Origin: Akebia trifoliata
Taxonomy: Eukaryota; Streptophyta; Magnoliopsida; Ranunculales; Lardizabalaceae
Assembly (NCBI GenBank): GCA_017979445.1
Contig: CM030714.1
Location: 42,512,826-42,576,825 of the forward strand
Direction: 5' to 3'
DNA length: 64,000 nucleotides
A model generated the notes under the pieces. The model saw only the letters and a list, made by a program, of their open reading frames with translations, had not been told where the DNA came from and did no database searches. A program made the translations under genes and the position numbers. This document shows, one piece after another, positions 27,501 through 64,000 of this stretch; position 1 is the first letter of the stretch; each line of letters opens with the position of its first letter.

Positions 27501-28560
27501 TTCATTGGTCTACAAATTAGCTAAAGCCTTATATGGACTCAAACAGGCATCGAGGGGTTGGTTTGAGAAATTTCACAGTGTTTTGACTTATGTTGGATAT
27601 CATCAAAGCTCTTGATCCTTCACTATTTATTCTAAAGACTCCACAAGGATTAGTAATTTTATTGGTTTATGTGGATGATATTTTGATCACTAAGAGTGAT
27701 CTTGATGGGATTAGTCAACTTAAACGACTATTACATGCCTCTTTCCACGTGAAAGATCTTGAGCGATTGACTTACTTTTTAGGACTTGAAGTATCCTCAT
27801 CCCCATAAGGGTTCCTCCTAAGTCAAAGAAAGTACACATTTGATTTAATAAAAATAGCCAAGTTGACCAATGATAAGGTTTATGAAACTCCTCTTGAGCT
27901 CAATGTTAAGTATGGAAAGGATGATGGCGATCCCCTTCTTGATGTGACAATGTATTGCCAACTGGTTGGTAGTCTTGTTTATCTCATAATGACTAGACCA
28001 GACATTTCTCACGTAGTTCATATTGTTAGTCAAATAGTGGTAGCTCTACACACTCTTCACATGATTGTTGTTCATCGAATTATTCGTTATCTTCACGATA
28101 CACTTGATAAAACATTATTGTTTCCTTCTTCATTAGATCTACAGTTGAGAGCATATTCTGACTCAAATTGGGTTGGTTGTCACTCCACTCGTCAATCTAC
28201 AACCAGATATTATCTATTTTTGGGACAATCGTTGATTCATTATAAGTGTAAGAAACAGACTACTGTATCCAATCTAGTATAAAAGATGAATACCGAGCCA
28301 TGGTTGATGCATGTAGCGAGATCACTTGGATTTGTGGGTTGTTGACTGATTTGGGTTTGCACTCTATTGATCCAACATCATTGTAGGAAAATAATAAAAG
28401 TTTTATTCATCTAGTTTCCAATCCGGTATTCCATGAACGGACTAAACATATTGAAGTGGATTGCCATTTCATCTGCAAAAAGTATCTTTCTGACGTCATT
28501 ATTCTTTCACATGTTTCATCCACTTTACAATTTGCAGACTTATTGACGAAATCATTGTTC
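24535..28560 (+). pseudogene. copia gag-pol remains
   Basis: Visible in order: gag (KLDGKKFSLWSYHIRHLL near 24,550, then SVEGRIVVNLTSFHKASEV); a CCHC zinc knuckle C-YN-C-KEYI-H-FFSK-C (25192-25233); the protease active site DSGASNH (about 25,492); an integrase HHCC segment (LWHCRLGHLNSKN near 25,912, ending CKMCKS); integrase core RTDSRGEF (about 26,297); reverse transcriptase with QLDVNNAFFHEDLKEEV (about 27,415) and YVDDILI (27668-27688); RNase H with YSDSNWVGC (about 28,154) and a second half near 28,300-28,500. Stops and frameshifts separate nearly every domain. It cannot make a full polyprotein. Confidence 0.9.
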
Positions 28561-36900: not shown

Positions 36901-39371
36901 CGCTATTTGAAGGATTGTAACAGTTGGGTGTTTGAGGGGAGGTGCCAGTCGGATTAGTATTCTTTCTTGTCTTTGTTTGAGCTTGTTAGTTTTCTTCTGT
37001 AAAGTCTTTAAAGAGTTTAGGGGAATTTTCTTTGAGGATTCCTTGGTTGGATGGAGGGGGTATGTTGTATTACTTCTAACAAGTTGGTCTTTGTGCTTTG
37101 GCTGGTCACCTCAACCACTTCTTAATCAAAATTATTCACTTATAAAAAAAATAGAAAAAAGAAAAACAAATAAGAAGAAAAGAAATGGAGTGGATTTGCA
37201 AAAGTCAGAAATTTTGTATTTACTTTTTTGTCTTCATCAATTATTACTTTCTCTCAGCGTGCAAACTTTGGTTTAAATCTTCAACAGGTTCAGATAGCTC
37301 AGGCTTATGAGAAAGGTGGAGCAGCATGCCTTAGTGTGTTGACAGATGCAAAATACTTCCAGGTAAAGTTTTTGCATGATGGCGTAAGTTCAAGGATAGA
37401 AGGTTGGTTGAAAGTTGAAACATTAATTATATTTATTTCTCTAAACACTTTTGTCTTTATTTTGGTTTTATTAAATGCAGGGAAGCTTTGAAAATTTGGA
37501 AGCTATACGTAACGCTGGAATAAAGGTCTTTTTTTGTTAAAGATGTCCTCTTTGCTGCCTCATCTTTACTTGTATGCTTTATTTATTGGTTTCTTGGTCT
37601 GTAAACTTCTGACTTGAGCAAGAATTACAGTGCCCTCTTCTTTGCAAAGAATTCATCATTGATGCGTGGCAAATTTACTATGCTCGAACAAAAGGTGCAG
37701 ATGCAGTTCTTTTGATTGCCGCTGTATTGCCTGATATTGATATCAAATACATGACCAAGATCTGCAAAATGCTTGGGATGGCAGCACTGGTTGAGGTTTG
37801 TAGCTTTTCTTTAGTCCTAATTACGTTGTTTTATCTAGCTTAATTGCTTAAACTGTGATCCTGCATTCCTCGGATAAAACATAGTTACTATTTCTCAAGG
37901 TTAATACAGTCATTTTATTCATCAATCATTAGTAGATTTCATTGTTTGAAATTATTTCTTGTAAGTCCTTACAATTACTTCGAGTCACTGACTCAGTTGC
38001 TTTCACCATTATCAATTTTCTTATTGTGGGTATGCTGAATTCAAAAGAATTTTTTAACTGTATCTTATCTTTTAAGACATGTCATCGATTATCTTTTGTT
38101 CCTCTCTTTTACTCCAACCTTTGGGTCTATAAAACTTCTATCAAAATTTCTGAATGGAAAGAAAAGGAAATAGTACCAGTTTTTCATAGTTTAAATGATT
38201 TTTCATTGTTTATATTTGTTTTGAAGGTGCACGATGAAAGGGAAATGGATCGTGTTCTAGGAATAGAAGGGATCGAACTTGTTGGCATCAACAACCGTAA
38301 CCTTGGTAAGTTGTTGTTTCCTTGATCTCCTTCTCTTATCGAAATGGTTTTCGTCAAATTCAACCCATCCTCGCCTTGTTTTGAATACACAGCCATTGGT
38401 GTACATGTCATCTATTTTCCTTTATACTTTTAAATTTTATAGGCTGTCATTAATTTCTTAGTGGAGATTACTCCATATTAGCCGAAGAGATTAAAAAAAA
38501 AAGTGCTTAAACATGTATGCATGTATATACTGAATTATTGTAAATTAGTGGGTAGTGAATTTGGTATTGGTCATCGGCAGAAACATTTGAGGTTGATATT
38601 AGTAATACAAAGAAGCTTCTTGAGGGAGAGCGTGGTCAAATTATCCGTCAGAAAGACATAATTGTAAGTGACTTATGCACTAACGTTTTAGACTCAGAGA
38701 ACTTTGAAGATCCTTTTTAATGGTCTTGAAATCCATTTTCTTCTCTTCAGGTGGTTGGAGAATCTGCGCTGTTCACTCCTGATGATATTGCTTATGTTCA
38801 AGAAGCTGGAGTTAAAGCGGTACTTCCCGTAACTTTTGCGTTGAACATTCCATCTTTTATTTGTTTTATCGGTACATTGGGTTTGGGTTTTAAGAGGGGG
38901 TCTTTTATTCCTGCTTAAAAGCAGGTTCCCTTGTCAACATGTCATGTCTCACTTACTAGAGGTTAATTGCCTCAATTGGGGGAGAAAATAATCACGACAC
39001 CCCATAGCGTAGATTAAATTCCAATTTAATGTTACTTAATCAAAAAAAAAAAAAAAAAAAAACCACCAATAAACCTGATTGCACTCATGCATAACTTAAA
39101 TTCGTTTGCATGAAACTCCTATGATTGCAAGTAAACTTCAAAATATATTTCTGTTCATATTACGTTAAAGCAGTGACATGCATGCTCAGGTGCATTTAGA
39201 TTTATGATGTCTCAGTATGGATATGTATATTTAGTCATTTACTCTATTTCTAAGGTGGAAATGTGTTGTTTTGTTCTTTAGGTTTTGGTTGGGGAATCAA
39301 TTGTGAAACAAAGTGATCCGGCGAAAGGAATAACTGGACTTTTTGGTAACAACATTTCTCCATTTGTTTAA
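33951..39371 (+). CDS. IGPS: Indole-3-glycerol-phosphate synthase, plastid (10 exons, intact)
   Basis: Converts 1-(2-carboxyphenylamino)-1-deoxyribulose 5-phosphate to indole-3-glycerol phosphate in plastid tryptophan synthesis. Exons: 33951-34109, 35006-35260, 35358-35534, 37288-37362, 37481-37525, 37631-37795, 38227-38305, 38581-38663, 38751-38819 and 39282-39371. All phases agree, giving 398 residues, close to the plant family. Exon 1 encodes a Ser/Arg-rich transit peptide ([14 protein letters not shown]). The TIM-barrel residues are present: [13 protein letters not shown] (Glu, Lys), [14 protein letters not shown] (Lys), [13 protein letters not shown] (Glu), GINNRNLETF (Asn) and [12 protein letters not shown] (Glu). 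Exon 2 ends AAG|GCACTT: no GT donor keeps the phase, so intron 2 is GC-AG or the donor is mutated. Intron 3 contains a LINE fragment. The C-terminal FGNNISPFV differs slightly from relatives. A partial copy lies at 61,203-62,250. Confidence 0.95.
36430..37185 (+). mobile_element. LINE 3'-end fragment in IGPS intron 3
   Basis: Broken frames read [39 protein letters not shown] and [12 protein letters not shown]. These match the C-terminal zinc-binding reverse-transcriptase region (zf-RVT) of plant LINEs. The 3' part ends in GGCTGGTCACCTCAACCACT and an A-rich tail (37,141-37,180), as expected for target-primed insertion in the sense direction. The IGPS splice sites are not touched. Confidence 0.75.
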
Positions 39372-39567
39372 TTTATGCCTTTTTTTTTTATTTTTGCTAC
39401 CCCATCTTTGTAGAAGAATACCGATAAATTCTTTTATGTTATTTAAGTATTATTTCAGCCAATAATTTGATCGAGTTGTCTTTACTCTTAGATTTCTCTT
39501 CCTTTCATGATTTAAGTTCATTTTGAAAGTGTTACTTGAACCCTGGCAGTTGAATCGATATGAGATG

Positions 39568-40652
39568 TTACTAATGCAACACGCCATTGGATCTTTGATT
39601 AACTAACTTGGGTCACTTATTCTTGTCTAAAAGACTATTCTTTTGCTCATACAAATCAAATGGTTCTGGTTCTCTCTTCATTTCTGTTGTACTTCTATGG
39701 CACTTCCGTAGATGTTCCCATCTAGAAATGGTAAGAAAGTTCGATTTCATGACAAAATCATGTCCACGGCTCTCCAGGACATTAAGATAAAATATACATG
39801 AAAGACCCCCAACTGAGAGCATATGGTGTGATTTGGACAGCATGAAGAGGAGATTTTATCTCTGAAAGTAAAATTCTTCGTTCATTACTGTAATTTCTTT
39901 GTTCAATTTATTATTATAGACATCCAAATCCTAAAAGGGTGATTTAGGCATTCCTAAATGTTTTGGTGAATATTTGAAATGCCCCATTGTTTTCAAATTA
40001 GTGACATTGACTCCTTTACCTCGGTCCTCTCTTATGGACTAATGGACAATGACTTGAATGCCCTGCCCTCAATTCTCAAATATGGTGATGCAATACCTTG
40101 GTCCTTCTCCAAGCAGGCTAAGCAAATGATAATGAATGTATCATCTGCTAAAAGTACATGAACAAGAATAAAAACAATGGGTTTTCTGCTAAATGTTTTT
40201 AAAGAAAAAGAGTGAATAGTTGTGCAGGATCCTAATTTTGGGGGTAAATGCTTCTTTTTATTAAGTTTTGAATTGAGGATAAGTTGGTATTTTGATCAGG
40301 ATTGATGTGGGCCACTGGGCCATTTAATTATTGGGTTTTATTTAGGATTTAGACGATTTCAGGTCAGCAAAGAATCCTTAAGGTTCTTTTAAATCATTGA
40401 TGGTTTTGGTGATTTTGGATGATTTCAGGCCATTGACCTGGTGGTATAGTTTTTTTGTAGAATAATGATTTTCTGACGCCCTCATCACAGAACCATTGAT
40501 CATTTGCCTTGGGATACATAGAATCATAAATCTTTTTCTTGGGTATCACAAGGCAAATGATCTACAGTTTTGTGATAGGGAGTAGGGATGTGTATGTCAT
40601 TGTGGGGCGTCAGTTTATCGCAAATTTTTTTATGGTAAGAGTTTTGTAACAA
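39568..40652. repeat. IGPS 3'-flank block duplicated at 62,463-63,515
   Basis: Starts near AACACGCCATTGGATCTTTG and includes GGTTCTGGTTCTCTCTTCAT, CCATCTAGAAATGGTAAGAA and foldback copy 6. The second copy keeps order and orientation with point changes. No gene is recognised in either copy. Confidence 0.9.
40465..40619. mobile_element. Foldback MITE family A, copy 6
   Basis: Ends ATGATTTTCTGACGCCC / GGGGCGTCAGTTTATC are inverted. Inner arms GATCATTTGCCTTGGGATAC and TATCACAAGGCAAATGATC, with TAAATCTTTTTC at the apex, fold over most of the unit. It lies inside the block duplicated at 62,463-63,515, where the same insertion is present. Confidence 0.8.
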
Positions 40653-40681: not shown

Positions 40682-40763
40682 AACCCATACCTGATAGAAG
40701 CCTAAACTCTTTAAACAAACAGAACCCATACCTGATAGAAGCCTAAACTCTTTAAACAAAAAG
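40682..40763. repeat. Tandem duplication, 41-bp unit, two copies
   Basis: AACCCATACCTGATAGAAGC..TTTAAACAAACAG occurs twice head to tail with almost no differences. The second copy ends inside the broken end of the glycosyltransferase gene, so the last few codons and the stop are made from this repeat. Confidence 0.95.
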
Positions 40764-41528
40764 ACAGCCTGAATAATCTCTGCTGCATAGAGACACGGGG
40801 CCTATAGCCCATACATTGTTGATCACAGCCTTCTTGTAGTGATCAATGTAAGTTGGCTCTAACTCGTAGAAGCTATTCTCAACGCAACCGAAGCTACCAG
40901 TTATTGAGTTGTAGATCCTTTTCATGTGATCCGTATAAGGAGTTTGAATTTTGAGATGTTGAGGGATTTGAGACTTTTTGAACTTGATCTCGTCAGGAAG
41001 ACCGGGTAATATGAAATATGTATCTGATTGGTCATTGCAGTTATGGTCACTTGTGTAGCGTTCCATGCTGCCCATTGCACTTAGAGAGAAGACGGATGTG
41101 GAGGAGAAGTACAACCTTGGGATTCTAAGCTCTGCAGCGATATCATTTGTCCAAGGGAAGAACATATCGGTGACTATGCAATTTGGGTGGTTTTCTCTAA
41201 AGAATTTCTCAATATCGGATTGGAGAAGGTTGATAGCGTGAAATAGTTTTTGTGATTGCTCAGGAGTTTTTGTGGTGTTGAAATTCTCGATTCCTTCTGG
41301 TAAGCCGACTTCCTCCCTAGGTAAGTGAAGTAAATGAATTGAGACTGGGTAGCCGGATTTGATGTCTAGATCTATGGAGTTTTGGAAGAGTTTGGCATGG
41401 AAAGGGGTGGTGATGATGGTAGCATGAACCCCATGTCTAGAAAACATTCTTGCTGTGTCGACTAGAGGTATCATATGGCCTGGACTCAAAAATGGAAGGA
41501 AAAATACTTTTATAACTGAAGCATCCAT
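40752..41528 (-). pseudogene. UDP-glycosyltransferase (UGT73-like), N-terminal half only
   Basis: The frame encodes 258 residues starting MDASVIKVFFLPFLSPGHMI. Family-1 plant glycosyltransferases carry the catalytic His in this FLSPGH motif (here His18) and a partner Asp in the later IVTDMFFPW stretch (Asp121). The N-terminal acceptor-binding domain is complete as far as NNVWAIGPVSLC. It then ends after ten unrelated residues, where a full enzyme of about 490 residues would continue into the sugar-nucleotide-binding PSPG domain. No PSPG box (WAPQ..HCGWNS) was found below 40,750. A TATA-like CTATAAAT lies about 35-40 bp upstream (41,568-41,561), so the promoter may survive. The product could not bind UDP-sugar. 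A split by an intron is possible, but no donor with a downstream exon was seen. Confidence 0.88.
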
Positions 41529-42047
41529 GATGATGGTGGTGGTGGTAGTTCTCTCCCTTAATTTATAGATGGATTAAAAACTGTCTTGAATTGAAGAAAT
41601 TTGGTAATCTATGAGTGGTTGTAGTTCAGTCACTCTATATCATGGACGATGGTAATTTGGGAAATATTTCAAGACTTTTGTGGCTCTTAGGATTTGAGGT
41701 AAAACAAAGACTTTCTAGATATCAATTATGATCATGGTTTTTAAACTTGGTATCACATCTCGTCTCATTCAGCTCCGATACCCTGTCATCTCGGACGAAT
41801 TTTCAGATATGTTTGAGACGTCTCGTAAGACAACTCAAAAAATTAAATGTGAGATGTAAAACTCGATCAAAAAAATGATTTTGTGAGTTGATCTTATTCA
41901 ACTCTAATACTGAGTTAACTCGGACGATACGTTTGGGTCTCGGACGAATTTAAAAACCATTATTATAATAGTACTTGGGACCCACATGACAATAATAGTC
42001 CTTGGGGGAGCGAACTACTTTTTTTTTTTTTTTTCCAAAAGGAGAAT
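41529..42047. other. Upstream region of the truncated glycosyltransferase
   Basis: Contains short CTCGGACGA and CAACTC repeats at 41,790-41,950 in both orientations, with ATTTTTAAATTCG-like arms around GGTTTTTAAACTTGG / AATTTAAAAACCATTATTAT (41,734 and 41,945). This suggests a small decayed inverted-repeat element. No gene recognised. Confidence 0.4.
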
Positions 42048-44428: not shown

Positions 44429-45319
44429 CCATCACACTCTTTAGAAATACATCCCTCCCCTCTATAGTCTATTAAATAATTTCCCTAAATCGAAAATAGG
44501 GTCCAAGACTGTAAGTGGCCTTCCAGACTTCCCAGAGTTTGACAGAAAATAGAAATACACGTCTTGTTTTAGACATGGCATATGCATGCAATAATAAAAA
44601 AATTAACCAAATTAGCAAATTAAAAATCTTTTGTTGACGTCAACTTTATAAAGAGTAGAAACTTTGAATTGAAGTAAATAATTGATTCGATCAATCCAAA
44701 AAATTTAGAATAAAATTTCAATGATGATGATTCAAATACTTGTTCATAAAACCCATCGGTTCAAAACGCAATAATCAGCCAATCAAGTACGACACTTCGA
44801 TGTATAGATGTATCTATATATTAATGCTAAACAGTACTATTTTAATCCATTATACAAGACCATTGAAATAACGAATATTACAAAGATAAAATGAGGCAAC
44901 TAAAATAATCTCATCATCCATGGTGGTAATTAAAAATCCATATATATATATATATATATACTTGTTCTCACTCACTGATGGAAGACAACCTTGGACATAT
45001 CCTCGGACCTAATTAAAAATTAGAAAATCATTTAAACTCTCGTTGGCTTTTCGACATTTAAAATCCGTTCTTCGTTGCAAGCCAATCAGAACACAAACCA
45101 GTGAATCAACAATTCAATAAAATGAGACGTAGGACCATAAGACCTCTATTATGCATACTTTGGATGGATTGGGGGCCTTCAATTATAAATGTGTCCACTT
45201 TGAGAAGTTCCACACGTTAACTTCTTTTTTCCATTCTACTGTTACTACTAGACATTAACTTCCCATCTATTAAGTTAAAGAATCCCCTTTGAATCAATGG
45301 CAACTTCCACTGATCCACC

Positions 45320-45322
45320 CAC
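45320..45322. other. CACTA target-site duplication, left copy (CAC)
   Basis: CAC immediately before the terminal CACTA, repeated at 52460-52462 after the other terminus. CACTA elements make 3-bp duplications. Confidence 0.85.
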
Positions 45323-45430
45323 CACTATGTGAAAAAAGCCCATATTTGACGGTCTTAGCCCGTCAAATTTTGAGAAATTTGACGGACCCTCCTGTCAAAT
45401 ATTCTCTTGTAGAATTTTTTTTTTTGACGG
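45323..45430 (+). repeat. CACTA left terminus and subterminal repeats
   Basis: CACTATGTGAAAAAAGCCCA starts the terminal inverted repeat (about 27 bp, against CACTACGTGAAAATCCCAAA on the other strand at the right end). TTTGACGG and its complement CCGTCAAA or variants then recur about six times within 110 bp. These are the subterminal motifs that CACTA transposases bind in known elements. Confidence 0.9.
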
Positions 45431-45819
45431 CCCTGGACTATCAAATTATTGGAGAATGGGCTTTAGAAGAAGAAAAAAAAATCATAGAGTATGACCATCG
45501 AATTTGAAGGTTTAACAAATAATAGCATGATCCTCTAATTCACCAATCACAATGAACGAAATAATAAAAAAAAATTAAAAAAATTAAAAAAAACAAAAGA
45601 AAAATCATAGAACAAGAATATGAAGGGCATCCATATTGACTGAAGAACAAAGAAGAGAAAACTGAATCAATATTCATGAATTAATATTTTGAAATTGAAA
45701 TAGACCCAACTTCACATTAAATCGAAGAAAAAAGAAGAGAAAACTGAAGAACAAAATATGAGTAAGAGGAGAAAATAGATTCGATGGCCCAATTGATTTC
45801 CTTCACTAACATGCACTTG

Positions 45820-46241
45820 TTGATTGCTTCTTTGCAGCTGTGACCTTCTTCGCAACCTCTTTGCAGCTGTGCCTTGCATGCCTGATTGGGTCCATCACGT
45901 ACATGTAAATCAATATCGATGCCTAATATAATTAGCAACAATTACAAGATCACAATATAAGTGATCCAACTAGAATACAAAATTGAAACTCACCTTCGTC
46001 GCCCGCATCAGATAACATCGTCAGTTACTTTAGCCCCTCACCGAGGCCTTGTGGCATTCTTGGGCTTTGGGCAAGATTACCTATCCTCCCCTTCATAGCC
46101 TGAGAAAATTCGATACAAAAACTTCCAATTCAGTAAGAGGCATAGAATCTGTCTTCTCTAAAAGATGGAAAGATCCTTACCTGTACACTCTTCTGGTGGG
46201 CTTCCTATAATGTATGCCTCCGTAACCAAGAGTGAGAGCTT
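45820..46241 (-). other. Candidate minus-strand exons in the CACTA element, unidentified
   Basis: 46241-46181 is bounded by GTGCAG and ACAG|GTAAGG and reads KLSLLVTEAYIIGSPPEECT in one frame. 46099-45994 is bounded by CTCAG and GAAG|GTGAGT and starts AMKGRIGNLAQSPRMPQGLG before a stop. Near 45,885-45,820 a frame ends AAKKQSTSAC before TAG. The splice-like borders and compositional contrast suggest captured or transposon-derived exons. I do not recognise the proteins. Confidence 0.35.
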
Positions 46242-47751
46242 CTGCACGAACAACAAAGGATTTCAGTAAAACTAAAAATCAAAATTAGATTGTCTAGAAA
46301 ATGGAGTTCAATAGTTGCACATAAAACATGATTATATGCCATCCAAGTGCAAATTTTTGAGAAAAATAACTAAATTCCACAGTATAACTAAATTTCTATA
46401 CTTCATTTCCATGTATCAGTGGGGAAAACATCTGAGATTCAAGTGGGAGGCCTCACTACTTAATAGGTGAGATGATTTTCCCATAATCAGATATTTATAA
46501 CAAATCTAGAGCATATATACCCATAAATGGAAAGTAAGACATACCAAGGTTTTTGTAGTACTGGACTATACATGAAGCATATATGATGTGGAGACAGACC
46601 ACCAAATCATTGAGCTCCATTGGGGATCTCATTGAATTAGCCTATTTAAAATACAAATAAAGGGCTACTTTCCTCGATATACCCCAGGAATAATCCCAAA
46701 ATGCAATTTGATCGGATGGTTAGGACCATCCAATTGGACTGTTGTTTGACTAGGATATTGAATGATGGATAAGCTGGACTTGTCAGATCGATAAATTGTA
46801 TACAAATTGTATGCTAGAGAACTGATTTAACTAACCTACTATGGAATCCGCTTGTTCCTATTAAGAGAATTTGGTAACCTCTTGCAACATGGTAAGAACA
46901 GATTTGTGTTAGGTTTTCTACCAAATACAAACCCATGATAGTTTACTACAATTTTATATGCAAAAAGGAAAAAAAAAAATAGTGTGTGTTTGTGTCTGTA
47001 TTATTTAGTAATCAAACATAACTCATGCAAAGCACCAAAATGATTAAATTAAATTATGCAAAAGAGAAATGGTAACTAGATTAATAGAACTATAAATACT
47101 TAGTCACTTGTTATGACCAACCAAATGTAGCCAAGTGGTTCACAGTTTTGGGCCAATTCTTACCCATATCTCGACTTGATACTTGTTAGTGACCCCAGCC
47201 ATCAGATTTGATAAATTTATACAAAGGTTAGTCATGCATGAGTATATTAAAACTGAAACCAAATTTGAGGGAATCAATAAAAGTCAATTTATACAAAGGT
47301 TAGTCCCAATGAATACCATTAGAATTAAAAGTCTCTTGTGGGTAAAATCCAGTTACTGATCTGATTCCATCAGTCTGTCTTGTGCCCACTTGCCAATCTG
47401 CAAAGCCATTTGCCCATTTTTACCCATTAATTCAAAAGTGGTAGTATTTATAATGATGTTAAAATATAACATACAAAGTACCATAAACTATAAATGCAGC
47501 AGTGGTATAACTAAATCCAGGCACACAATTAGACTCGCACGACCTATGGTTTCATACACTTTATCCCTACATGCATACACCAAATAGTTAATATTTGGTC
47601 AACAAATAAAAGCAGGACGAACTCCATCAGAAGATAAACATCACATGTCCATGACATATATGAAATTATGTAATGTGCCCCCTCCGCAAACTTAAAACAT
47701 CACCAAATTCTATACTAGAAGATATTCAGGAACGAGGTTCGTTTTTCGTAC
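46242..47751. other. Non-coding interior of the CACTA element
   Basis: No exon recognised; AT-rich. A direct repeat AATTTATACAAAGGTTAGTC occurs at about 47,214 and 47,286. Confidence 0.4.
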
Positions 47752-48286
47752 CTGTGGCCAGCATGTTGGAAGAGTAAGCCTGGAGTATATGGCATCATCC
47801 TTGTTCCAACACGTTCTTTCTTTTTACCGAACTGGAACACAAGAAGTAATTTTAATTTTAATTTTGAAATATAAAGGGGGGACATTGTTTGTTTCATGAT
47901 TGTGTTGATTTTCAAGATAAACTTGTACACTTGAACACAATCAGAGGATGGGGAAAGGTTGTTACATGTCTATAGATTGCTATACCTTATCATGATCCCA
48001 AATATTTAAGAGACCATCCTCTGCAGCACTGCCAAAAACAAACGATCTGTCCGGACACCACTGAATAATAAATAAATTTTCAGTTACAAAAGAAAGGAAG
48101 TGAAAATCCAAGCATCAATACAGAATAACAATGCAATCGTAAGAAAGAGATAAGCCAAGAAAATTATCCCATACCTGTACACAAAGAACAACAGCTTTGT
48201 GACTTTCAAATTTATAGATTGGTGACCCAACACCTCCAGAAGTGAGGTTTCGGCGATCAAACATGTGAACGGAATTATCAGCCAAC
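47752..48286 (-). pseudogene. Captured fragment of FVE/MSI4 (WD40 chromatin protein), three exons
   Basis: Exons 48286-48175, 48060-47986 and 47831-47752 keep their introns and GT-AG sites. They read LADNSVHMFDRRNLTSGG.. KFESHKAAVL-type blade, then WCPDRSFVFGSAAEDGLLNI plus WDHDK, then a basic linker and GLLFQHAGHR. This order and the FFQHAGHR insert are specific to plant MSI4/FVE among RbAp48-like proteins. FVE acts in histone deacetylase and Polycomb complexes in the nucleus and affects flowering. Only about two blades remain, with no start or end. The three exons stay in one frame with each other. It is a passenger of the CACTA element, not a working gene. Confidence 0.85.
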
Positions 48287-49034
48287 CTGAAGTAAAAAGA
48301 ATGAAGAATAGAAAATAACCAAAAATGCTGTAAAAACTTCTACATCTATTAAAATTAAGCATATAACTAGGTCAGGAAAAAAAAGCATTATACATTTATG
48401 TACTTCTATTTGCAAATTCTAGCTGATAACATGATGTTTGCAACAAGAAGAATCCCTATTTGTTCCGATGGATTATGACCGTTGGATCTGATGTTGTGGA
48501 TGGCTAGATCTCGTCTTTAAGTGAAAATGTGACTTACAACTGACGCACATCATTTGGTTTTCAATTTTAAAGTATTACCTTATATCCATCAAGAAAAAAA
48601 AAAAAATAATGAAATTCAGATATACAGGCCATGGAAAAGAAATCATGCATCATGCGATCTGCAAAATCACATAAATAGGACTATCTAGATGGCATATGGA
48701 TCTAATAGATTGAATATATCTTAGTTCAAGAAACAATACCACCAACAATTTGGTAAGTTGATTCATCAGAAAATTGATAAATTATATTTATAGCTGTGAT
48801 TGAATTCAATCTAAGGGACCAAATATGTAAATTTTCTATGTGTGAACTGCTGAAAGCAGAGTTACCGTTACATAGAATTAAATATTTCATGAATTACCAT
48901 AATTAAGATAGTTTTTCAATCCAAGAGAAGCTAACCAGACAATACAATAGTACTCCATACAAAACAGAAGGCATGTGTTCCACGCAAAACAACAAAAAAT
49001 ATTAAATAAAATAATTTAAGTCGAGTGTCATAAC

Positions 49035-49187
49035 CTTCCCAACCCCTTGAAGGGCATTTATGGGCTGCCAAAGAGCTGAAAATGTGATGCCAATGCTAAA
49101 CAAATGGACTGTGCTTCCAGCCATCCACATCATGAAGCCCATCATGAACAAATTCTTGAAAGGGGCTTGGGCCACTTCCCAAGCTTT
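49035..49187 (-). pseudogene. Captured exon of EMC4 (ER membrane complex subunit 4)
   Basis: The minus strand gives a 51-codon exon from acceptor TAG (before AAAGCTTGG) to donor GGGAAG|GTTATG. It reads KAWEVAQAPFKNLFMMGFMM, then WMAGSTVHLFSIGITFSALW, then QPINALQGVGK. This is the first transmembrane region of plant EMC4 (TMEM85 family), a subunit of the complex that inserts membrane proteins into the ER. The exon is undamaged, but the N-terminal and C-terminal exons are absent. It lies inside the CACTA element and in the same orientation as the FVE fragment. Confidence 0.88.
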
Positions 49188-49282
49188 CTATTCATGCGGA
49201 AAACGAAAACATGTTAACTACTTGTACTTTAGGTTACACAGAATAACATATATTTTGTTAAAACTCATTTAACAAATGAAAG

Positions 49283-49380
49283 CATATCTGCAACTGTCTT
49301 CACTTCCTTTCATGAAAGCATCAGCATGTTTCACCATTTTCGACTTCCTTTCATGCATATCTGCAACTGTCTTCACTTAT
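49283..49380. repeat. Short direct repeat in the CACTA interior
   Basis: GCATATCTGCAACTGTCTTC followed by ACTT occurs at about 49,283 and 49,355. TTCCTTTCATG also occurs twice between them. Confidence 0.75.
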
Positions 49381-49729
49381 CCAATGGTTTCTCTTGAAAT
49401 CTGGATTTTGAATTCAGTTTATTAATTATATATAACTCAGAAAACAAATGACAGTGGGGATAACACAGTACCTCCAATGGCAGGAGAGCCTTAGGAATTA
49501 TTATGAAACAAAGGCAATTGGACACAAAACAAGTAACTTTTATAGATAGCTACACCTCTCTTTCTCAAACATTTGTGTCGAAATGATTCACTTCTTCACC
49601 AGCAAAATTTCTTTTTCTGCTCCAAAACCAAAAAAACAGAAGTAGAATATAAGGACATCAGTCTCATAAATGACCCAAGTAAATAGTCTTCTTTTAATTA
49701 TACAAGCAAGGATTTCAATTTCGACTTAC

Positions 49730-49804
49730 CCGGAGTTTGGCTTCTTCTTGATTGTCTATATAAGCAAGAAGCTCCTCTTGCCTCATTAGTGCGTCATGCA
49801 GAGC
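49730..49804 (-). other. Captured exon of an unidentified gene
   Basis: A 25-codon exon between acceptor TAG and the strong donor CCGG|GTAAGT, reading ALHDALMRQEELLAYIDNQE, then EAKLR. It is highly charged, helical and coiled-coil-like. Phase 0 at both ends is compatible with the EMC4 exon 540 bp further along the minus strand. I do not recognise the parent gene. Confidence 0.5.
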
Positions 49805-49875
49805 CTACTCAGGAAGAAGGAAGCAAAATCAAATCATTATCTATAAGTACGCACATGCACGTATAAATGTAAACA

Positions 49876-49900
49876 TACATACATACATACATACATACAG
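49876..49900. repeat. (CATA)n microsatellite
   Basis: Six CATA units in a row within the CACTA element. Confidence 0.9.
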
Positions 49901-50027
49901 GCAGACAATTAAGAAATGCCTCTAAGTGCACAAATTAAAACAAAAAATATGCACATGCACATATAGGTAAATGCAGACGTGTACAATAATGAGCTTGCAC
50001 AGTGATGAATCCATGACATACCTTCTC

Positions 50028-50178
50028 CCTCCTCCTTTATCCGGGCTTGGGACCGGCTATGTAAAACGTTAATTTTACATTGGCGGAGTTAAAAAGGTTT
50101 TACCTAATACATACAGAGTTAAAAAAGTTTTACTTAATACATGCAGAGTTAAAAAAGGTTTTACTAAATAGATAGAAA
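50028..50178. repeat. Dispersed repeat fragment plus 30-bp tandem repeat
   Basis: CTCCTCCTTTATCCGGGCTT (50,030) matches a block near 18,480. It is followed by three roughly 30-bp units of GAGTTAAAAA(A/G)GTTTTAC(C/T)TAATACAT (about 50,086-50,178). Confidence 0.7.
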
Positions 50179-50179
50179 T

Positions 50180-51934
50180 GATCAATCAGTTTGACTTCAA
50201 AGTTTTGAAGTAAAACTCAAAGTGCTAAATTGTACACCAATGAATCCATGAATGGTTTGGTCCATCATGTGTGGACCTTCACAAACTATTGAAATAACAG
50301 ATGCTAGGAAATGTAGGTGTACTTCTCATAAACTCTCTCTACGAACACAACAACATCACCTTTTCATACATCACCTCTAGAGGTAAAAATAGAATTTTCA
50401 ATTTGTAACTATAAGCATAAAACAAGTAAAAATTGTAACTATAAGCATACATCACCTTTGTATACAACAAGTACACGAGCAGCTGGATGATCATCCATAA
50501 CTCTCTATCTATAAAATTCATAGTAAAGAATGACCCGAGAAGCATAGAAAGAACACGTTAGTGAAGACTCTGCACTTCCCTTTTTTCCCTTAGATTATTG
50601 GACTTTGACCTCACCTCACAATCCATTAATTAGATAACTTTGTCAATCTACTGTTTTGAGCTTATAAACATATGGTACAGAATAACATGCATGCACATGC
50701 ATCCGTAACAATATTAACAATTTAACCAACTAATGACTTGAAAGATAATTAATAAAAAAATGTGATTTAGACAGATAAACATAACATAAAATTTGAACAA
50801 AAGCTTTCAAAACTAGGATAAAAGAATTCGTAATGATGCAAATATATCATCATTAAAATGAAAATCGTTCAAACTTATTGACATATTATCAATTAGAGAT
50901 ATATTCTAATTTACCTTGTTTGTCTTAAGATAAAAGCAAAACCATTAAATGCAACAATTAATTCTCAACTATGGGATTGTTAAGAAATTCATAATCAAAA
51001 GCCTACTATAATTCAAGTCATAGTTATAGTAATTCAAAAGATATTAGACTTCTTGACTGTGTAACTATTGAACTTCCTTCTTTACTCGTTTCCACATTGC
51101 ATGGGTATATGCCCTTTGACATATAAATATAACATAAAAGAGTTGAAACTTTATTTTTTGTTAAGTAAGATTATATTAATATGGACAAAAGATTAGTTTA
51201 CAATCCAAATATGGGAAACCGTCCCCAACTAGTCCTCCAGAAGGGTCTGTTTAGCCAAAGGAGGTAGGTTTGCAAAAGAGAAAAAAATCAAGAGAAGAGT
51301 TACAAACACTCCATAGTTTGCTAGTGTATCAGTAAACGCCATTTCACTCTCTCCATGTGGGCTGAACTTTCCATCAAAATCTTGATAGAGCTGACTTTAT
51401 ACTATGTATCACAGAATTTGTTCTCCACGGGAAAGATTCTCCTTTCAATCTGTTCCCCACAAGCATTGAATTAAGCTCAATGATGACAATTTCTTGGTGT
51501 AAATTCTAAACTTGAAGAACTCACAGCAACACTGTCAAAAAACACTAGAACTAGAATTTAAAACTTAGTAGTTGGACTATAGAAACTATATTAACATATT
51601 TGTAATGGTCATTAGTAAATTCTTTTATTGTATTTTAAACCTGAATGATTGAGGTATCATTTGGGCCATTGTGACAATATATACAGGATCCAAATTTTTG
51701 AGTTTAGTGGCAATCCGTTTTCTAAGTCTCTAATTTGGCATAATTTTTTTTAATAATGTTTTTAACTAATCTAAAACGCGAATCATACAAAACTGAGATT
51801 TGAAATAAGAAAATCCTACAAAACCTAAAGTTCAACTAATTTTCTACTAAAATTCAATGAAACTCAATTCGATTTATACGATACAAACCCTAGAAGACAT
51901 GAATCAAATAGGAAAAAAGAGATTTCGAACATAC
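50180..51934. other. Non-coding interior of the CACTA element, right half
   Basis: AT-rich, no exon recognised. AACTATAAGCATA is repeated at 50,406 and 50,434. Confidence 0.4.
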
Positions 51935-52360
51935 CTTGAGGATTAGATGTGAAATTCAATTTTTCCAGACAAATCGTCATGAATCTACGATACCTGATCT
52001 CAAATGATGTGAAATTCAAGCTTTTCGATCCTCGATTAGCAGAGAATCCAAGAACATAGAGATTTCTATAAAGAAATTCAAAGAGAAGTTAGTGATGGAG
52101 GAGTGTCTAGATCAACTATAAATGAATTCGACTTCGTCTGAAATGGAGATAGAGATTTCTTCGCGTGGCTGCGATTGAAATATGTTCGATTTCGAGATGT
52201 GCAATCGAAAGAGATGCAACTCCGTCAACAATGGAGACAAAGAGTTCTTCGCAAAGTTTCCATCGGGAAGAATCGTGCTTCACCTTCGATGGAGAGGTCG
52301 ATCGATTGAGAGAGAGAGAGATCGACTGTGAGAGAGAGGCAGAGAGTGAGAGTAATTGAC
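51935..52360 (-). promoter_or_regulatory. CT-rich leader exon of the CACTA element, minus strand
   Basis: Read on the minus strand, CTCTCTCTCTC tracts (52,350-52,308) precede a leader ending at donor CTCAAG|GTATGT (51935/51934). This resembles a plant 5'-UTR exon. All captured exons lie downstream on the same strand, so a chimeric transcript could start here. The + strand open frame 52165-52359 through the same tract is probably chance. Confidence 0.45.
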
Positions 52361-52424
52361 CGAAAAAAGTGATTCACGGGCCGCGGAGTTTTGGGTTTAA
52401 AATTCGACGGGCCACGCCCAACAA

Positions 52425-52459
52425 ATTTTCTTAGACAAATTTGGGATTTTCACGTAGTG
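52425..52459 (-). repeat. CACTA right terminus
   Basis: On the minus strand it starts CACTACGTGAAAATCCCAAA, then TTTGTC, matching the left terminus. CAC (52460-52462) follows. CCGTCGAATT inside recalls the subterminal motif. Confidence 0.9.
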
Positions 52460-52472
52460 CACCACTGGTAGC

Positions 52473-52564
52473 ATTATTGGAGGTTTTGAACATCGATGGA
52501 GGCAGTATAAGAGGGATCATTATTGGAGGTTTTGAACATCGATGGAGGCAGTATAAGAGGGATA
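52473..52564. repeat. 46-bp tandem duplication in patatin-like exon 1
   Basis: ATTATTGGAGGTTTTGAACA through GAGGGATC occurs at 52473-52518 and again at 52519-52564 with one difference at the end. 46 is not a multiple of three, so it shifts the frame after the DGGSIRG motif. Confidence 0.97.
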
Positions 52565-53907
52565 ATTCTGGGAGCCATGCATACTGAGACTTCTTCGAAT
52601 CCAAGCTTCACGTACACATAAAAAACTTCTTAATTGCCTTACCCCAAATTTCAAATTTTCTTACATTAAATGGTGTACTAGTTCATGAGGCTAAAGATGT
52701 TTTTTGAGTTATAGGAGCTTGATGGACCCCAAGCAAGGATCACGGACTACTTTGACATGGTCACAGGAACAAGCACAGGAGGATTAGTGACTACCATGGT
52801 TACTGCTCCTAATAAGAATAATCACCCGCTTTACGCTGCCAAGGATATTAATAATTTTTATTTGGAGCATTGCCCAAAGATATTTCCTCAAAAAGGGCAA
52901 GTAAAAGGGGAGATATTGTAACATCTTATCCTAATATTGGGTAGGCTAATGTTGACTAATGTTGGATTGACAATCTTCCTCAATTCATAACCATTTTAGT
53001 GTGCCTATATCCATATTTGGTGGATGGTAATCGATTTTGGATTCGGCAATTATCCACAACATGGGGATTATAAAAATGAATGATGTTTTTGGGTTTTTTC
53101 CAAAAACCCATCATCTTCAAGCTTCCAAAAACGTTTTCTTGTTCTTAAGATTTAAAGGTAGAAGAAGATATAATTTTGAGTTTTTGAAAGTTAAAAATGC
53201 TATCTATTCAATGATTTATAGATAAACTATCGATTAATTGTTTGATTCACAGATCAAATCGATTGGTCCTTTATTCGTCGACTTTTAGAATTTTTTTGTG
53301 ACTATGATTTGGTGTGTTTTATATTAAGATACAAGTAATGATGATTTAAGTTCTCTAATTCTTAAATTATAGGACATGCACACATGGGGTTATCCTAATC
53401 TTTTGGTCTAATTTGCACCCAATGTTATTTCATTGACATTTCGATGATTGATGATTGACGATTGATGATCGCAGAAATGGTTTCTTTAGTTGGGCGAAGG
53501 GTTTGTTTAAGACGGCCACAGGGGCCCAAGTATGATGGAAAGTATTTACAATCCTTAGCAAAAGACCTACTTGGTGACACCACCATCAGCCAACAAACCC
53601 TCACAAATGTGCCCATCCCAGCTTTCGACAACAAGCTACTTCAACCCACCATCTTTACATCGTTAGGGTTAAGGATATATTCTCTAATTCTTCCAATTTT
53701 CAATCCAACAAAGTTTTTCACATTTTTTTTTACAAATATGTACAGGCCAAAACTGATGTTGCCAAAGATGCTAAATTATCTGATATCTGCCTCAGTACCT
53801 CTGCTGCACCTACATATCTCCTGGCACATTACTTCGAGACGAAAGACTCTACAGGAAAAACTCAAAGCTTCAACCTCATCGATGGTGGGGTTGCAGCAAA
53901 TAATCCG

Positions 53908-56900
53908 GTATATCTCATGAAATTTGACTATTAGTCCACAATAATAGTATACAAGCATTAGAAATTTAAGGGAAAAAAAAAATACAAAAATGGGCACTTA
54001 TCGTTGTAATGGTATTTATTTATTTTTACCAAAATAGTTACATCATTTTACTAAATTTACCTTTATACCCATGTGAATTTCATGCAATACTATTTTTTTT
54101 TTCTAGAAATGGAGGGTATAAAAGTAAAATCATGAAAGTGGACCTACATGTCCTTTTTTGGTAAAAATAACTATATACGTATCAAAATGAGTATATGTCT
54201 GGGGTATGATGAAATGGGTGATTTCGGTGTTTGAACTTATGTGACTAACAATAACTCAGCAATTGGTTTCCCTACATTTATGTTATAATGCATTTGGTCT
54301 TCATAAATCTCACCCATTTGTTTGTGCAGTCCCATCAGATCAAGCTTTATGTGTGAATGTATGTTTGAATTTATGCATTTATTTACGTTAACAATCCTCC
54401 CAAAACTCACTTTTGATTACTGTAGTCATTGTTAAGTTTTTTCTATATAGAAACTTAAATCATGATCAATCTTTTCATAGGAGAAGAACATGGCGCAATT
54501 ACCGCACACATCTGCTAGCAACTATATCTGCCTACAATACTTGTCATCTCATATCACGTTCACTTTGGATAGGATCCAAATCAATTGCTCACCAATTGCA
54601 TTTGCTTGAATTTTCTTCAAATATTAGCAGTCCGTTTGAAATGGTAGCAAGCCCCTTTCTTTGGTACCTTCTTAATGTAAATTCGCAAGCATTATCGAAG
54701 TGATGTCTTGATTAGAAGTGATTCAGGATTTACACTTTGCCCATGATTAGGTCCTATTGGATGGTTTGGACGCATCCTCTTTGCTGACATTTTTATATCT
54801 TCGATTAATAATCTTGAAAAGTTTGACACAGTCACGTTTTTTGACTCTATGCACTTCAAAAGCCTCTAGTTTCTATTTTTTTTGCTTTGTGTTTGACTCC
54901 CTCTCTTCTTTTCTTTAGAAATTAAACCACAATTGTAACTTGTAAGCGAATGATTTCTCACTCTCTAATTTGCAGCGGCCACTACTGCCACTATAGGCCT
55001 CACTTGTATCTTTAACTAAGGTAGTAGAACCAATTAGTGGTGGTGTTTGTCCACCACTATAGGGGTCCAAAAAAGGCAAAACACACACACACACACACAC
55101 ATGTGCGAGCATGCATGCAAGGTAACCCCCAAAAAAGAAAAAGGAACAAATCAAAGACCTCCGCTGCTCTGTTTTTCTGAAGTAGAGGAATATGTTTGCG
55201 AAATCTATAATTAGAGACTGGTTATTGATAATCCTGCCTGTGTTTGTCAAATGTCCAAAAGTTGTTTTTTCATGATATGCCAACATGAGACAACTCAAAA
55301 TTGTTTATGAATCTAGTATATTCTTTTATACTCAATTATTGACAAGGTTATTGTGTTAGTTTTACAGGAACTTGTCTTGACTATGGCTATAATTTGCAAC
55401 AATCTTGTGTCTCAAGCTTATCAGTACCAGGTTTACTTTTTTTCCCTCCATTATCAGATATCCAACCCTTTTTCCCTACAAGTATGAATGATTTCTTAAT
55501 TAATTTATGTGATTGCATTAACTACTCAGGCATTTACATTAAAACACTTGGTTAAACAACCAACTACTAACTACTGCATTAATGGTTTTTTTTCCTAAGT
55601 ATGTATAGATATTGCATTAATATATCTAAGAAATTAGAACATGGACGATCGTATGAGTGACATTCTAAAATTCTTAGATTAATCCAAGTATGATATGTAT
55701 GTCCACATTTAGAAACATTGAGCTACATTGACAATTTAGAGAATACACGTTTAATTGCGCAGTTTACTATGAGCTGCATGATTAAGTAGAGTACTTGTCA
55801 TGCCCCAAGTTTCAAGTTCCATAACCCGATCCTTTATCACTATTTGAACAGTGATTAGGGGTGATTTAGGAATAATCCACTTACTCACATCGACAAGAAA
55901 AAAAAAAATATGATAAACCTAACTAAAAACATTATCTAAATCCATTTCTTGGAAACATTCACATAGGATAGGTCAATGCACCTTCAATAAAAAATTCATA
56001 AATTATTCAATTTTTATCAGAATTTAATGCGACACCCATTTTGGAAAGATGGTTGAAATAACCATAATATAAAAATGCTAAATCAAATAAAATATTTATT
56101 TTTCAGGTATAAAAATACCTAACAAAAGTTCTGTACTATGATGTAATTTAAGATTTAATAACACATCGTGTGACTTCGAAAATATGTACACACTTCAGTT
56201 CATATTGTAAAGTAGAGATTTTAAATTCTATAGAAGTTATTGAAATGTGGAACCCAAGAAAATATGAAATGCATATTAAAATCATTGTTTGGCATGTGAA
56301 ATGTTTTTTTTCAAAAACAGCGGCACAAAATAGGTTTCCTACATATTTAGTAGGTTGGACGGTAAAATCCAGAATAAATATTTCTGTTATTTAAATGGTA
56401 TGGGGCCAAAACCATGTCAAAATTAACTTCCTAAACCCAATCCTAAAAAAAAATTAGAACTAAAGGAGAAGTCTAACCATGGATTGAGACGATATAAAGT
56501 AGGTTTTGTTTTCTATTTATTTCTGTTGTCCATTAATAGTGACAGCAAAAATGACTCATTTTAAAATATAATAATTTTTTTTAAATTCCAAAAAAAATAT
56601 AAGGATATGCGCGTGCGAGTTACAAAATTCTTCCAAGCGGTATAACATCATTTCAATAACAAATAAAAATTCTATAATATTTCTCGTGAAACATGTTAAA
56701 AGGAATTAGTAACATAACAAATCTTCTTTTCTAAATTAATTAATAACTAAGGTTTTTAAGATGAAAATCCTATACTTTTATTCGATAAATTAGTTTATAA
56801 CGATTCTAATAAGCATAAGATAACATCAAGAAGTCTTCCCAAAATCCCATACACCCATAATTATGGAAGCAAATAAACTTAGAAATAAACAAAGTAAAAT

Positions 56901-61075: not shown

Positions 61076-61202
61076 CCTTCTAAAAATTAAACTAGGGAGG
61101 AAAGTTGAGATTATTTTATCACATTAAATGATTCTCTCCCCTTGCTTATAGAAGGATGTAAGGTTGATTTTTTGGTGAGGATTGACACTTTGCATTGAGT
61201 TT

Positions 61203-62250
61203 CTTCATCAATTATTACATTCTCTCAGCGTGCAGACTTTGGTTTAATTCTTCAACAGGTTCAGATAGCTCAAGCTTTTGAGAAAGGTGGAGCAGCATGC
61301 CTCAGTGTGTTGACAGATGCAAAATACTTCCAGGTAAAGTTTTTGCATGATGGCATAAGTTCAAGGATAGAAGGCTGGTTGAAAGTTGAAACATTAATTA
61401 TTTTTCTAGACACTTTTGTCTTTATTTTGGTTTTATTAAATGCAGGGAAGCTTTGAAAATTTGGAAGCTATACGTAATGCTGGAATAAAGTTCTTTTCTT
61501 GTTAAAGATGTCCTCTTTGCTGCCTCATCTTTACTTGTATGTTTTATTTATTGGTTTCTTGGTCTGTAAACTTCTGGCTTGAGCAAGAATTACAGTGCCC
61601 CCTTCTTTGGAAAGAATTCATCATTGATGCGTGGCAAATTTACTATGCTTGAACAAAAGGGGCAGATGCAATTCTTTTGATTGCCGCTGTATTGCCTGAT
61701 ATTGATATCAAATACATGACCAAGATCTGCAAAATGCTTGGGTTGGCAGCACTGGTTGAGGTCTGTAGGTTTTCTTTAGTCATAATTACATTTCTTTTTC
61801 TAGCTTAAGTGCCTAAACTGTGATCCTGCATTCCTCGGATAAAACATAGTTACTATTTCTCAAGGTTAATACAGTCATTTTGTTCAAGTCAATCATTAGT
61901 AGATTTCATTGTTTGAAATTATTTCTTGTAAGTCCTTACAATAACTTTGAGTCACTCTATCAGTTGTTCTCACCATTATCAATTTTCTTGTTGTGGGTGT
62001 GCTGAATTCAAAAGAATTTTTTAACTGATCTTACCTTTTAAGACATGTCCTCGATTAACTTTTGTTCCTCTCTTTTGCTCCAACCTTTGGGTCTATAAAA
62101 CTTCTATCAAAATTTCTGAATGGAAAGAAAAGGAAATAGTAAATGATTTTTCATTGTTTATATTTGTTTTGAAGGTGCACGATGAAAGGGAAATGGATCG
62201 TGTTCTAGCAATAGAAGGGATCGAACTTGTTGGCATCAACAACCGTAACT
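61203..62250 (+). pseudogene. Partial IGPS copy (exons 4-7)
   Basis: Corresponds to 37,232-38,302. Exon 4 copy 61259-61333 is intact. Exon 5 copy (from 61446) has lost its GT donor (AAAG|TTCTTT where the gene has AAAG|GTCTTT). Exon 6 copy 61596-61760 has Cys to Trp in the LLCKEF segment and TGA at 61650-61652, where the gene has CGA. Exon 7 copy starts at 62175 and stops at AACCGTAAC (62249), where similarity ends. Introns are retained, so this is a DNA duplication, not a processed copy. Exons 1-3 and 8-10 are absent. It cannot make the enzyme. Confidence 0.95.
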
Positions 62251-62462
62251 TTGTTAAATTTTAAAGTTAATTTTCTAGAAGTCTTATTTTATTTTAAGGG
62301 TTGTAGTGAGGGTATTTATGTAATTTTGTATAGGTCCCACTTTACATGTGCCGTTGACACATGTCACTTTCTTTGTCTTCTCTACCGCATCACCTTTGTA
62401 TTTTTCCATTTAACCATTATTTCTTTTCCGATGTACTCTTCTAGAATCTCCACCTTCATTGA
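62251..62462. other. Filler between the two duplicated IGPS blocks
   Basis: About 210 bp with no match to 38,303-39,567 of the parent locus. It replaces IGPS exons 8-10 and their introns. No gene recognised. Confidence 0.6.
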
Positions 62463-63515
62463 TGTAACACACCATTGAATCTTTGATTAACTAACTTGGG
62501 TCACTTATTCTTGTCTAAAAGACTATTCTTTGGTCATATGAATCAAATGGTTCTGGTTCTCTCTTCATTTCTGTTGTACTTCTATGGCACTTCTGTAGAT
62601 GTTCCCATCTAGAAATGGTAAGAAAGTTCGAATTCATGACAAAACCATGTCCACAACTATTCAGGTCATTAAGATAAAATATAGATGAAAGACCTACTGA
62701 GAGCATATGGTGTGATTTGGACAGAATGAAGAGATTTTAACTCACAAAGAGAAAATTTCAAGTAATATTCTTCATTCATTACTATAATTTCTTTGTTCAA
62801 TTTATTATTATAGACATCCAATTCCTAAATGTTTTGGTGAATATTCGAAATACCCCATTGTTTTCAAATTAATCACATTGACTCCTCGACCTCAGTCCTC
62901 TCTTATGGACTAATGGACAATGATTTAAATGCCCTGCCCTCATTCTCAAATATAGTGATGCTATAACTTGGTCCTTCTCCAAGAAGGCCAAGTAAATGAT
63001 AATGAATGTATCATCTGCTAAAAACACATGAACAAGAATCAAAATAATGGGTTCTCTGTTAAATGTTCTCAAAGAAAAAGAGTGAATAGTTGTTCAGGAT
63101 CCTAATTTTGGGGGTGTATGCTTCTTTTTATTAAGTTTTGAATTGTGGATAAGTTAGAATTTTAATCAAGATTGATGTGGGTCACTGGGTAATTTAATTA
63201 TAGGGTTTTATTTAGGATTTAGAAGATTTCAGGTCAGCAAAGAATTCTTAAAGTTCTTTTAAATCATTGATAGTTTTGGTGATTTTTGATGGATTTCAGG
63301 TCATTGATTTAGTGGTATAGTTTTTCGTAGAATAATGATTTTTTGACGCCCCCATCACATCACTGTAGATACATTGCCTCAGGATACATAGAATCATAAA
63401 TCTTTTTCTTGTGTATCACGAGGCAAATGATTTGCGGTTCTGTGATAGGGCGTTAGGGGGTGTATGTCAAAGGGGGGCGTTAGATTATCAAGACTCTTTT
63501 CCGTCAGAGTTTTGT
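62463..63515. repeat. Copy of the IGPS 3'-flank block
   Basis: Corresponds to 39,568-40,652 in order and orientation, with small deletions. It includes the shared foldback MITE. Similarity fades after CAGAGTTTTGTAA (about 63,505-63,517). Confidence 0.9.
63335..63490. mobile_element. Foldback MITE family A, copy 9 (shared insertion)
   Basis: ATGATTTTTTGACGCCCCC and GGGGGGCGTTAGATTATC are inverted. The apex carries AATCATAAATCTTTTTC. It occupies the same place as copy 6 within the duplicated block. Confidence 0.8.
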
Positions 63516-64000
63516 AATACTTTCTGGAGTTTCAGGGCCTCCACAATGAGGGGAGGCTTCCAAGTGATTGTGACTTGTATTTACTATTTTTATTTACGCA
63601 AATTGATTTTCAATCTTGATTTTGATTTTGTTTGATGTTTAGGAAATTTAGGGGACCCTATCTCCAATCCATCGTTTTGAACTTCATCTTAATCCCTTCT
63701 AAAAAATCCTATCTTCTTTAGGTTTGAAGGTTCAGTATATTAATATTAATGTTGAAGATTAGGGTTAGAAGAATTTACCTGACTGGTTTTGGAAAATGAA
63801 ATTATTAAGGTCATCATCATCTTACATTATTTTATTAGAAAAGATTGAGGTCAAGGGGGGCATGTGGGTGTTTTAGTTAATATTTGATATACCCCCAATG
63901 TTTAAAACAGATGACATTGCCCTTCACTACTTTAAGGTATTCTCTCATATAGTTGTAGTAATGAGACATGACCTAATGGTGTTTATTTAGGGGGCGATTG
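63516..64000. other. Terminal stretch, nothing recognised
   Basis: AT-rich. ATATTTGATATACCCCCAAT near 63,880 loosely recalls ATATTCGAAATACCCCATTG at 62,840. No missing patatin-like or IGPS exon was found. Confidence 0.4.

Follow-up and report, generated by a model that had tools for sequence, protein, structure and literature searches.

The window analysed here, a stretch of 64,000 nucleotides of Akebia trifoliata DNA, contains a transposable element of 7137 bp with pieces of plant genes between its ends and pieces of a damaged patatin-like gene beside it. Features that delimit the element are as follows (strand is not assigned to the element as a whole or to the target-site duplication):

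45320..45322: left copy of the CAC target-site duplication
45323..52459: CACTA (Pack-CACTA) element over its full length of 7137 bp, delimited by its termini, the CAC duplication and a mirrored subterminal motif
45323..45335, plus strand: left terminal inverted repeat CACTATGTGAAAA
45345..45430, plus strand: left subterminal region with four exact TTTGACGG and a GCCCGTCAAATTTT unit with a facing copy
52399..52429, minus strand: right subterminal region, GCCCGTCGAATTTT unit with a facing copy
52447..52459, minus strand: right terminal inverted repeat CACTACGTGAAAA
52460..52462: right copy of the CAC target-site duplication

Ends of the element

The inverted ends typical for the CACTA superfamily (5′-CACTA...TAGTG-3′) were present, with CACTA starting at 45323 and TAGTG ending at 52459; so was the 3-bp target-site duplication expected of this superfamily, here CAC/CAC. 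The 13-bp inverted termini were identical at 12 positions, with one mismatch. We scanned the 64-kb window for terminal pairs spaced by 500–20 000 bp, with at most two mismatches and an identical 3-bp duplication; 45323/52459 was the sole such pair in the window. A pair with no more than one mismatch appeared in 1 of 300 dinucleotide shuffles. Exact matches to CACTAYGTGAAAA numbered two in the window, both being the element ends; at a tolerance of two mismatches this 13-mer had 6 matches against 4.8 expected, i.e. chance level. Inward of the first 13 bp the similarity of the two ends was modest (15 of 4930 random pairs scored equally high). The original prediction, made from the sequence, had placed the element at 45323..52459 between matching CACTA termini and a CAC/CAC duplication; the coordinates proved exact, and termini and duplication were seen on both sides.

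The subterminal repeats claimed earlier were strict at the left end only, as the right end had no exact TTTGACGG. All four exact copies in the window were at the left end (45345, 45360, 45378 and 45423); the right end had just TTCGACGG at 52403. With one mismatch allowed, TTTGACGG occurred at chance level in the window (42 matches versus 38.8 expected). The motif GCCCGTCRAATTTT, picked from the same data on which it was tested, had four matches with up to two mismatches in 64 kb, two per end and in mirrored order; 0.64 matches were expected, and four were reached in none of 100 shuffles. At the left end the GCCCGTCAAATTTT unit starts at 45358 (plus strand) and faces a copy with two mismatches at 45374–45387 (minus); at the right end GCCCGTCGAATTTT at 52399–52412 (minus) faces a copy, again with two mismatches, at 52416–52429 (plus). 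Subterminal repeats of the CACTA superfamily were thus present at both ends in the form of GCCCGTCRAATTTT. We found no report of a CACTA subterminal TTTGACGG in the open-licence literature.

Gene fragments inside the element

Between the ends we identified the following stretches:

51936..52459, minus strand: possible leader exon and promoter side, ending in CAAG/GTATGT
49730..49804, minus strand: SFH6/SFH8-like penultimate exon ALHDALMRQEELLAYIDNQEEAKLR
49596..49616, minus strand: SFH6/SFH8-like last exon, KKKFCW and stop codon
49035..49187, minus strand: EMC4 transmembrane exon of 51 codons, open and with AG/GT borders
48175..48286, minus strand: FVE/MSI4 exon a
47986..48060, minus strand: FVE/MSI4 exon b
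47752..47831, minus strand: FVE/MSI4 exon c
46181..46241, minus strand: exon-like stretch with AG/GT borders, which may not be an exon

The EMC4 transmembrane exon (49187–49035), previously described as undamaged, was indeed open between its AG/GT borders; it matched Pfam family PF06417 (E 2.7e-17), and 49 of its 51 residues were identical to an EMC4-containing protein of Acer. The three FVE/MSI4 exons with introns were likewise recovered, at 48286–47752, as consecutive minus-strand exons with canonical borders; the FVE piece was 82% identical over 88 residues to the date-palm MSI4-like protein P0001. A frameshift at the start of exon a was considered and rejected, the start being in frame. 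The ‘further unidentified exon’ was also real, and it now has an identity: the third captured gene is an SFH6/SFH8-like gene for a Sec14 phosphatidylinositol/phosphatidylcholine transfer protein, represented by its 3′-terminal two exons. For the exon-like stretch 46241–46181, with two reading frames and length-limited candidates, there was no source gene among the matches listed (in one search, the best 120 of 555). A ribosomal-protein origin of this stretch, suggested by three PDB matches (best E 0.0018), was rejected; the tail of the query was out of frame.

In the captured exons the splice borders were canonical and the introns retained, which argues for capture at the DNA level. All the captured exons were still open, so their decay has been slight. 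FVE proteins have 45 columns here with a conservation of 95% or higher, and the FVE piece deviated at three of them; at the same columns the median for 107 orthologues was zero deviations, and three were reached by 1 of the 107. Such changes are what one expects of a copy under weak constraint.

The ORF scan of the element covered stop-to-stop ORFs with a minimum length of 45 aa, which numbered 52. No transposase domain was detected among them by Pfam, so the element looks non-autonomous; the same scan missed the FVE and SFH exons, and short transposase exons could therefore have escaped it too. Weak Pfam matches to TMEM237 (0.0026), ETR1_N (0.021) and MPS-4 (0.043) in element ORFs were taken as chance. 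A candidate retroelement at about 51190–51450 was dropped, with no Pfam match.

Insertion site

The element probably interrupts a damaged patatin-like gene, to which the two flanks would belong:

45297..45322, plus strand: left flank, opening with an ATG; the interrupted patatin-like gene probably begins here
52463..53920, plus strand: right flank, pieces of the damaged patatin-like gene

A peptide from about 52720–52900 matched Pfam family PF01734 with E 1.5e-4 and 22.5 bits, under the cut-off of 27.7; the region 53459–53920 matched Patatin-17 (E 2.9e-7) and had no Pfam match. The segment 52468–52584, adjoining the right end and considered as a patatin N-terminus, was rejected: it had no PDB match, and in Pfam just an unrelated family (E 0.13).

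Interpretation and alternatives

We consider it very probable that the locus is a non-autonomous CACTA (En/Spm-type) DNA transposon with intact termini, carrying genomic DNA from three or more unrelated host genes, among them SFH6/8, EMC4 and FVE/MSI4. The results support the reading as a Pack-CACTA that contains parts of EMC4 and FVE/MSI4: host coding DNA of EMC4, FVE and SFH lies between the termini, and no transposase was seen in the 52 scanned ORFs (45 aa or longer), a scan in which short exons could be missed. The gene pieces would have been taken up as DNA, probably through the joining of neighbouring insertions or through faulty gap repair. The element would have inserted into the first exon of the patatin-like gene. 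It most likely moved by cut-and-paste, relying on a transposase gene at another site in the genome, and the captured fragments are probably non-functional passengers.

One could ask if a larger element starts at another CACTA, at 42789, and encloses 45323. This is extremely unlikely; 42789 and 52459 do pair, also with CAC present, but with three mismatches in 13 bp as against one for 45323/52459, and since 12928/13515 in the same window pairs with three mismatches as well, a match of this quality is not telling. Moreover, strict subterminal repeats adjoin 45323, and the patatin-like gene probably begins just outside this position. It is also very unlikely that local genes or separate insertions left these fragments behind and that the termini are alike by chance. 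A comparable terminal pair did arise in that one shuffle of 300; however, the subterminal motif is confined to both ends, each gene is represented by just one to three exons, and tblastn with eight relatives detected no other convincing part of the SFH, EMC4 and FVE proteins in the window.

Transcription of the element from its right end into RNA, chimeric or regulatory, with an effect on FVE, EMC4 or SFH is very improbable. The three captured genes are all in sense to the possible right-end leader exon, their splice borders are intact, and chimeric transcripts have been published for Tgm-Express1 and Tpn1. Against this, three pieces would all point the same way by chance in one case out of four, EMC4 and FVE are preceded by the last exon and stop codon that came with the SFH piece, and the EMC4-to-FVE and SFH-to-FVE splice joins run into a stop after two codons. 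One could speculate further that sense RNA from the right end, passing through the SFH, EMC4 and FVE exons, might yield small RNAs dampening FVE, an effect that the original prediction had raised as a possibility; we regard this as highly doubtful. If true, a transposon would act in trans to tune a regulator of chromatin and flowering.

Comparison with known elements

Soybean, maize, morning glory, Chenopodium and grapevine are known to have CACTA elements that carry parts of host genes. The statement that such capture is known ‘in a few plants’ was too narrow; it is commoner, as the multi-locus Pack-TYPE elements of maize, Tgm-Express1, Tpn1 and the Chenopodium cases illustrate. According to PMC8903248, it is common in maize for a Pack-TYPE element to contain coding DNA from two or more loci, with most loci in Pack-CACTAs, while in rice the several-loci result is limited to Pack-Mariners; Pack-TYPE elements are mainly of low copy number. 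The Chenopodium CACTA elements carry captured host pieces. The Pack-CACTA elements of Arabidopsis, rice and maize belong to other TIR families than the Akebia element, and the CACTA set of PMC8903248 is reported to have 5-nt duplications in contrast to the 3 bp seen here; 3 bp is the CACTA duplication length given in PMC8978399.

The Tpn1 family of Ipomoea nil, as described in PMC5105172, has 339 copies with a mean of 7,081 bp, 28-bp terminal and 122/104-bp subterminal repeats, 3-bp duplications in all copies except one, and some first-exon insertions; it is likewise a non-autonomous CACTA with its interior replaced by captured host sequence. Tgm-Express1, a soybean CACTA with five gene fragments, sits in an intron of F3H, whereas the Akebia element is probably in an exon of the damaged patatin-like gene; the captured exons of the latter are on the strand opposite to this gene, and the captured genes differ from those of Tgm-Express1. 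In the open-licence literature we found no report of a CACTA transposon involving EMC4 and none of a CACTA gene fragment involving MSI4.

The Akebia element leaves knowledge of gene capture unchanged and adds an example to an already well-known class of gene-carrying transposons. It is a clean case of exon shuffling by CACTA, in which a single 7.1-kb unit combines fragments of three unrelated genes together with their introns. Annotation can benefit from it, since the fragments of EMC4, MSI4 and SFH at this locus should not be called genes.

Boundaries of the element

Judging by the plant genes in it, the window is nuclear DNA of a plant. The 7137-bp segment 45323-52459 is a real, well-bounded and ordinary Pack-CACTA element. 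It starts with CACTATGTGAAAA, its other end reads CACTACGTGAAAA on the opposite strand, and CAC flanks it on both sides. At spacings of 500-20000 bp, 45323/52459 was the sole terminal pair in the window with no more than 2 mismatches out of 13 and an identical 3-bp duplication; in dinucleotide shuffles a pair with at most one mismatch appeared once in 300. Single motifs with mismatches were not above chance: the terminal 13-mer with up to 2 mismatches had 6 matches in the window (4.8 expected), and TTTGACGG with one mismatch had 42 (38.8 expected). We therefore gave weight to the paired arrangement and to exact repeats.

Exact TTTGACGG occurs at four sites in the window, none of them more than 108 bp from the left end of the element and none at its right end. 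A longer unit common to both ends, GCCCGTCRAATTTT, was picked from the same data in which it was counted; it is present in two copies per end in mirrored order (at most 2 mismatches) and, at up to 2 mismatches, absent from the rest of the window. Inside the first 13 bp, the alignment score of the two ends was equalled by 15 of 4930 random pairs. Given the pairing, the exact repeats, the mirroring of GCCCGTCRAATTTT and the end-to-end alignment score, both ends very probably belong to one element.

Captured gene fragments

Pieces of three host genes lie within the element, here in order from its right end:

49804-49730, minus strand: SFH6/8-like penultimate exon
49616-49596, minus strand: SFH6/8-like last exon, with stop
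49187-49035, minus strand: EMC4 exon
48286-48175, 48060-47986 and 47831-47752, minus strand: three FVE/MSI4 exons

Of the 7137 bp, 516 are exonic sequence of identified genes. A tblastn search with eight relatives chosen out of 211 proteins found no other convincing part of the captured proteins in the window, and two reading frames of an exon-like stretch, 46241-46181, had no match in protein and Pfam searches. Three imperfect head-to-tail copies of ∼30 bp each are located at 50086-50176.

The EMC4 exon matched Pfam PF06417 (E 2.7e-17) and shares 49 of 51 residues with P0027, an EMC4-containing protein. In this predicted Acer yangbiense protein (795 aa), which is probably a fused gene model, EMC4 is accompanied by another EMC4-like stretch and by a peroxidase domain.

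With the FVE piece, 555 of 1426 candidates fell under E 10; WD40 domains were present in 119 of the best 120 of these matches, many of them named MSI4. The best among the matches listed was P0001 from Phoenix dactylifera, with 79% identity over the search-aligned part and 82% over 88 residues in direct comparison. Pfam reported WD40 and nothing more specific.

The SFH piece gave 91 of 215 candidates under E 10; the shortness of the exon accounts for the weak best E-value, 2.9e-4. All 91 have the CRAL-TRIO domain PF00650, under the names SFH4/6/8, Sec14-type, CRAL-TRIO, retinaldehyde-binding/tocopherol-transport or hypothetical. P0127 shares 96% identity with the 25-residue exon; QEELLAYID was present in 80 of the 91 matches, and 49 end at the C-terminus in KKKFCW, exactly as the captured SFH piece does. 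The second exon, through its splice position and its exact ending, makes the SFH assignment firm.

A single frame runs open through the three FVE exons, and the exons of EMC4 and SFH are likewise open; thus the original prediction, which called the EMC4 exon undamaged, was correct, and the word holds for all captured pieces. AG acceptors are present at all captured exons and GT donors at all but the terminal SFH exon. Splicing of EMC4 or SFH to FVE meets a stop after two codons; SFH joins EMC4 in frame only with the SFH terminal exon skipped.

For divergence we used 107 of the 119 FVE proteins (from the best 120 of 555 matches; 12 misfitted the extraction pattern and were dropped). Median identity of the captured segment to these was 0.744, and just one of the 107 had a lower median to the others. 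At the 45 columns with conservation of 95% or more, the segment has three differences (median among FVE proteins, 0). Such differences would fit relaxed selection after capture.

Insertion site and neighboring sequence

The element probably sits in a gene. Minus one CAC, the flanks join as ATGGCAACTTCCACTGATCCACCCACCACTGGTAGC..., followed by VLNIDGGSIRGII, which we take to resemble a patatin N-terminus. Searched alone, 52468-52584 had no patatin match; the resemblance improves farther downstream in the right flank, where there is a PF01734 match (E 1.5e-4, scoring short of the family cut-off), and 53459-53920 matched Patatin-17 (E 2.9e-7) with no match in Pfam. The patatin-like motif sits one base off the ATG frame, and the presumed first exon contains an exact 46-bp tandem duplication (copies at 52472 and 52518; 52472-52563); the patatin-like gene is thus damaged.

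Elsewhere, 37231-40649 and 61202-63517 hold two parts duplicated within the window (93% and 86% identity); a translated piece at 61199 may be indole-3-glycerol phosphate synthase. A 273-aa ORF at 40752-41573 (minus strand) had no Pfam match at E 0.01; its PDB matches are plant glycosyltransferases including UGT73 types (best 7c2x, E 2.1e-60). The 157-aa ORF at 27809-28282 (plus strand), a putative Copia polyprotein piece, had no Pfam match.

Probable movement and capture

A scan of the element's 52 ORFs, which also passed over the short exons of FVE and SFH, gave no match to any transposase family; Rfam gave no match in the whole window at gathering scores. Most likely, a transposase encoded elsewhere would bind the termini and move the element. 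The gene fragments were most likely taken up as genomic DNA, because introns are kept. The route proposed for Pack-CACTA capture is the joining of neighboring insertions after aberrant excision (PMC8903248; PMC13317346).

Soybean Tgm-Express1 carries pieces of five genes within 5.7 kb. Further reports describe captured genic regions in Tpn1 elements (mean 7,081 bp; PMC5105172), fragments including AP2 and neprosin in Chenopodium CACTA elements (PMC8978399), and host pieces in grapevine CACTA elements (PMC2528002). Searches of open-licence literature for CACTA with EMC4 and for CACTA with MSI4 gave no paper; a new gene combination is as expected from elements of the Pack-CACTA sort.
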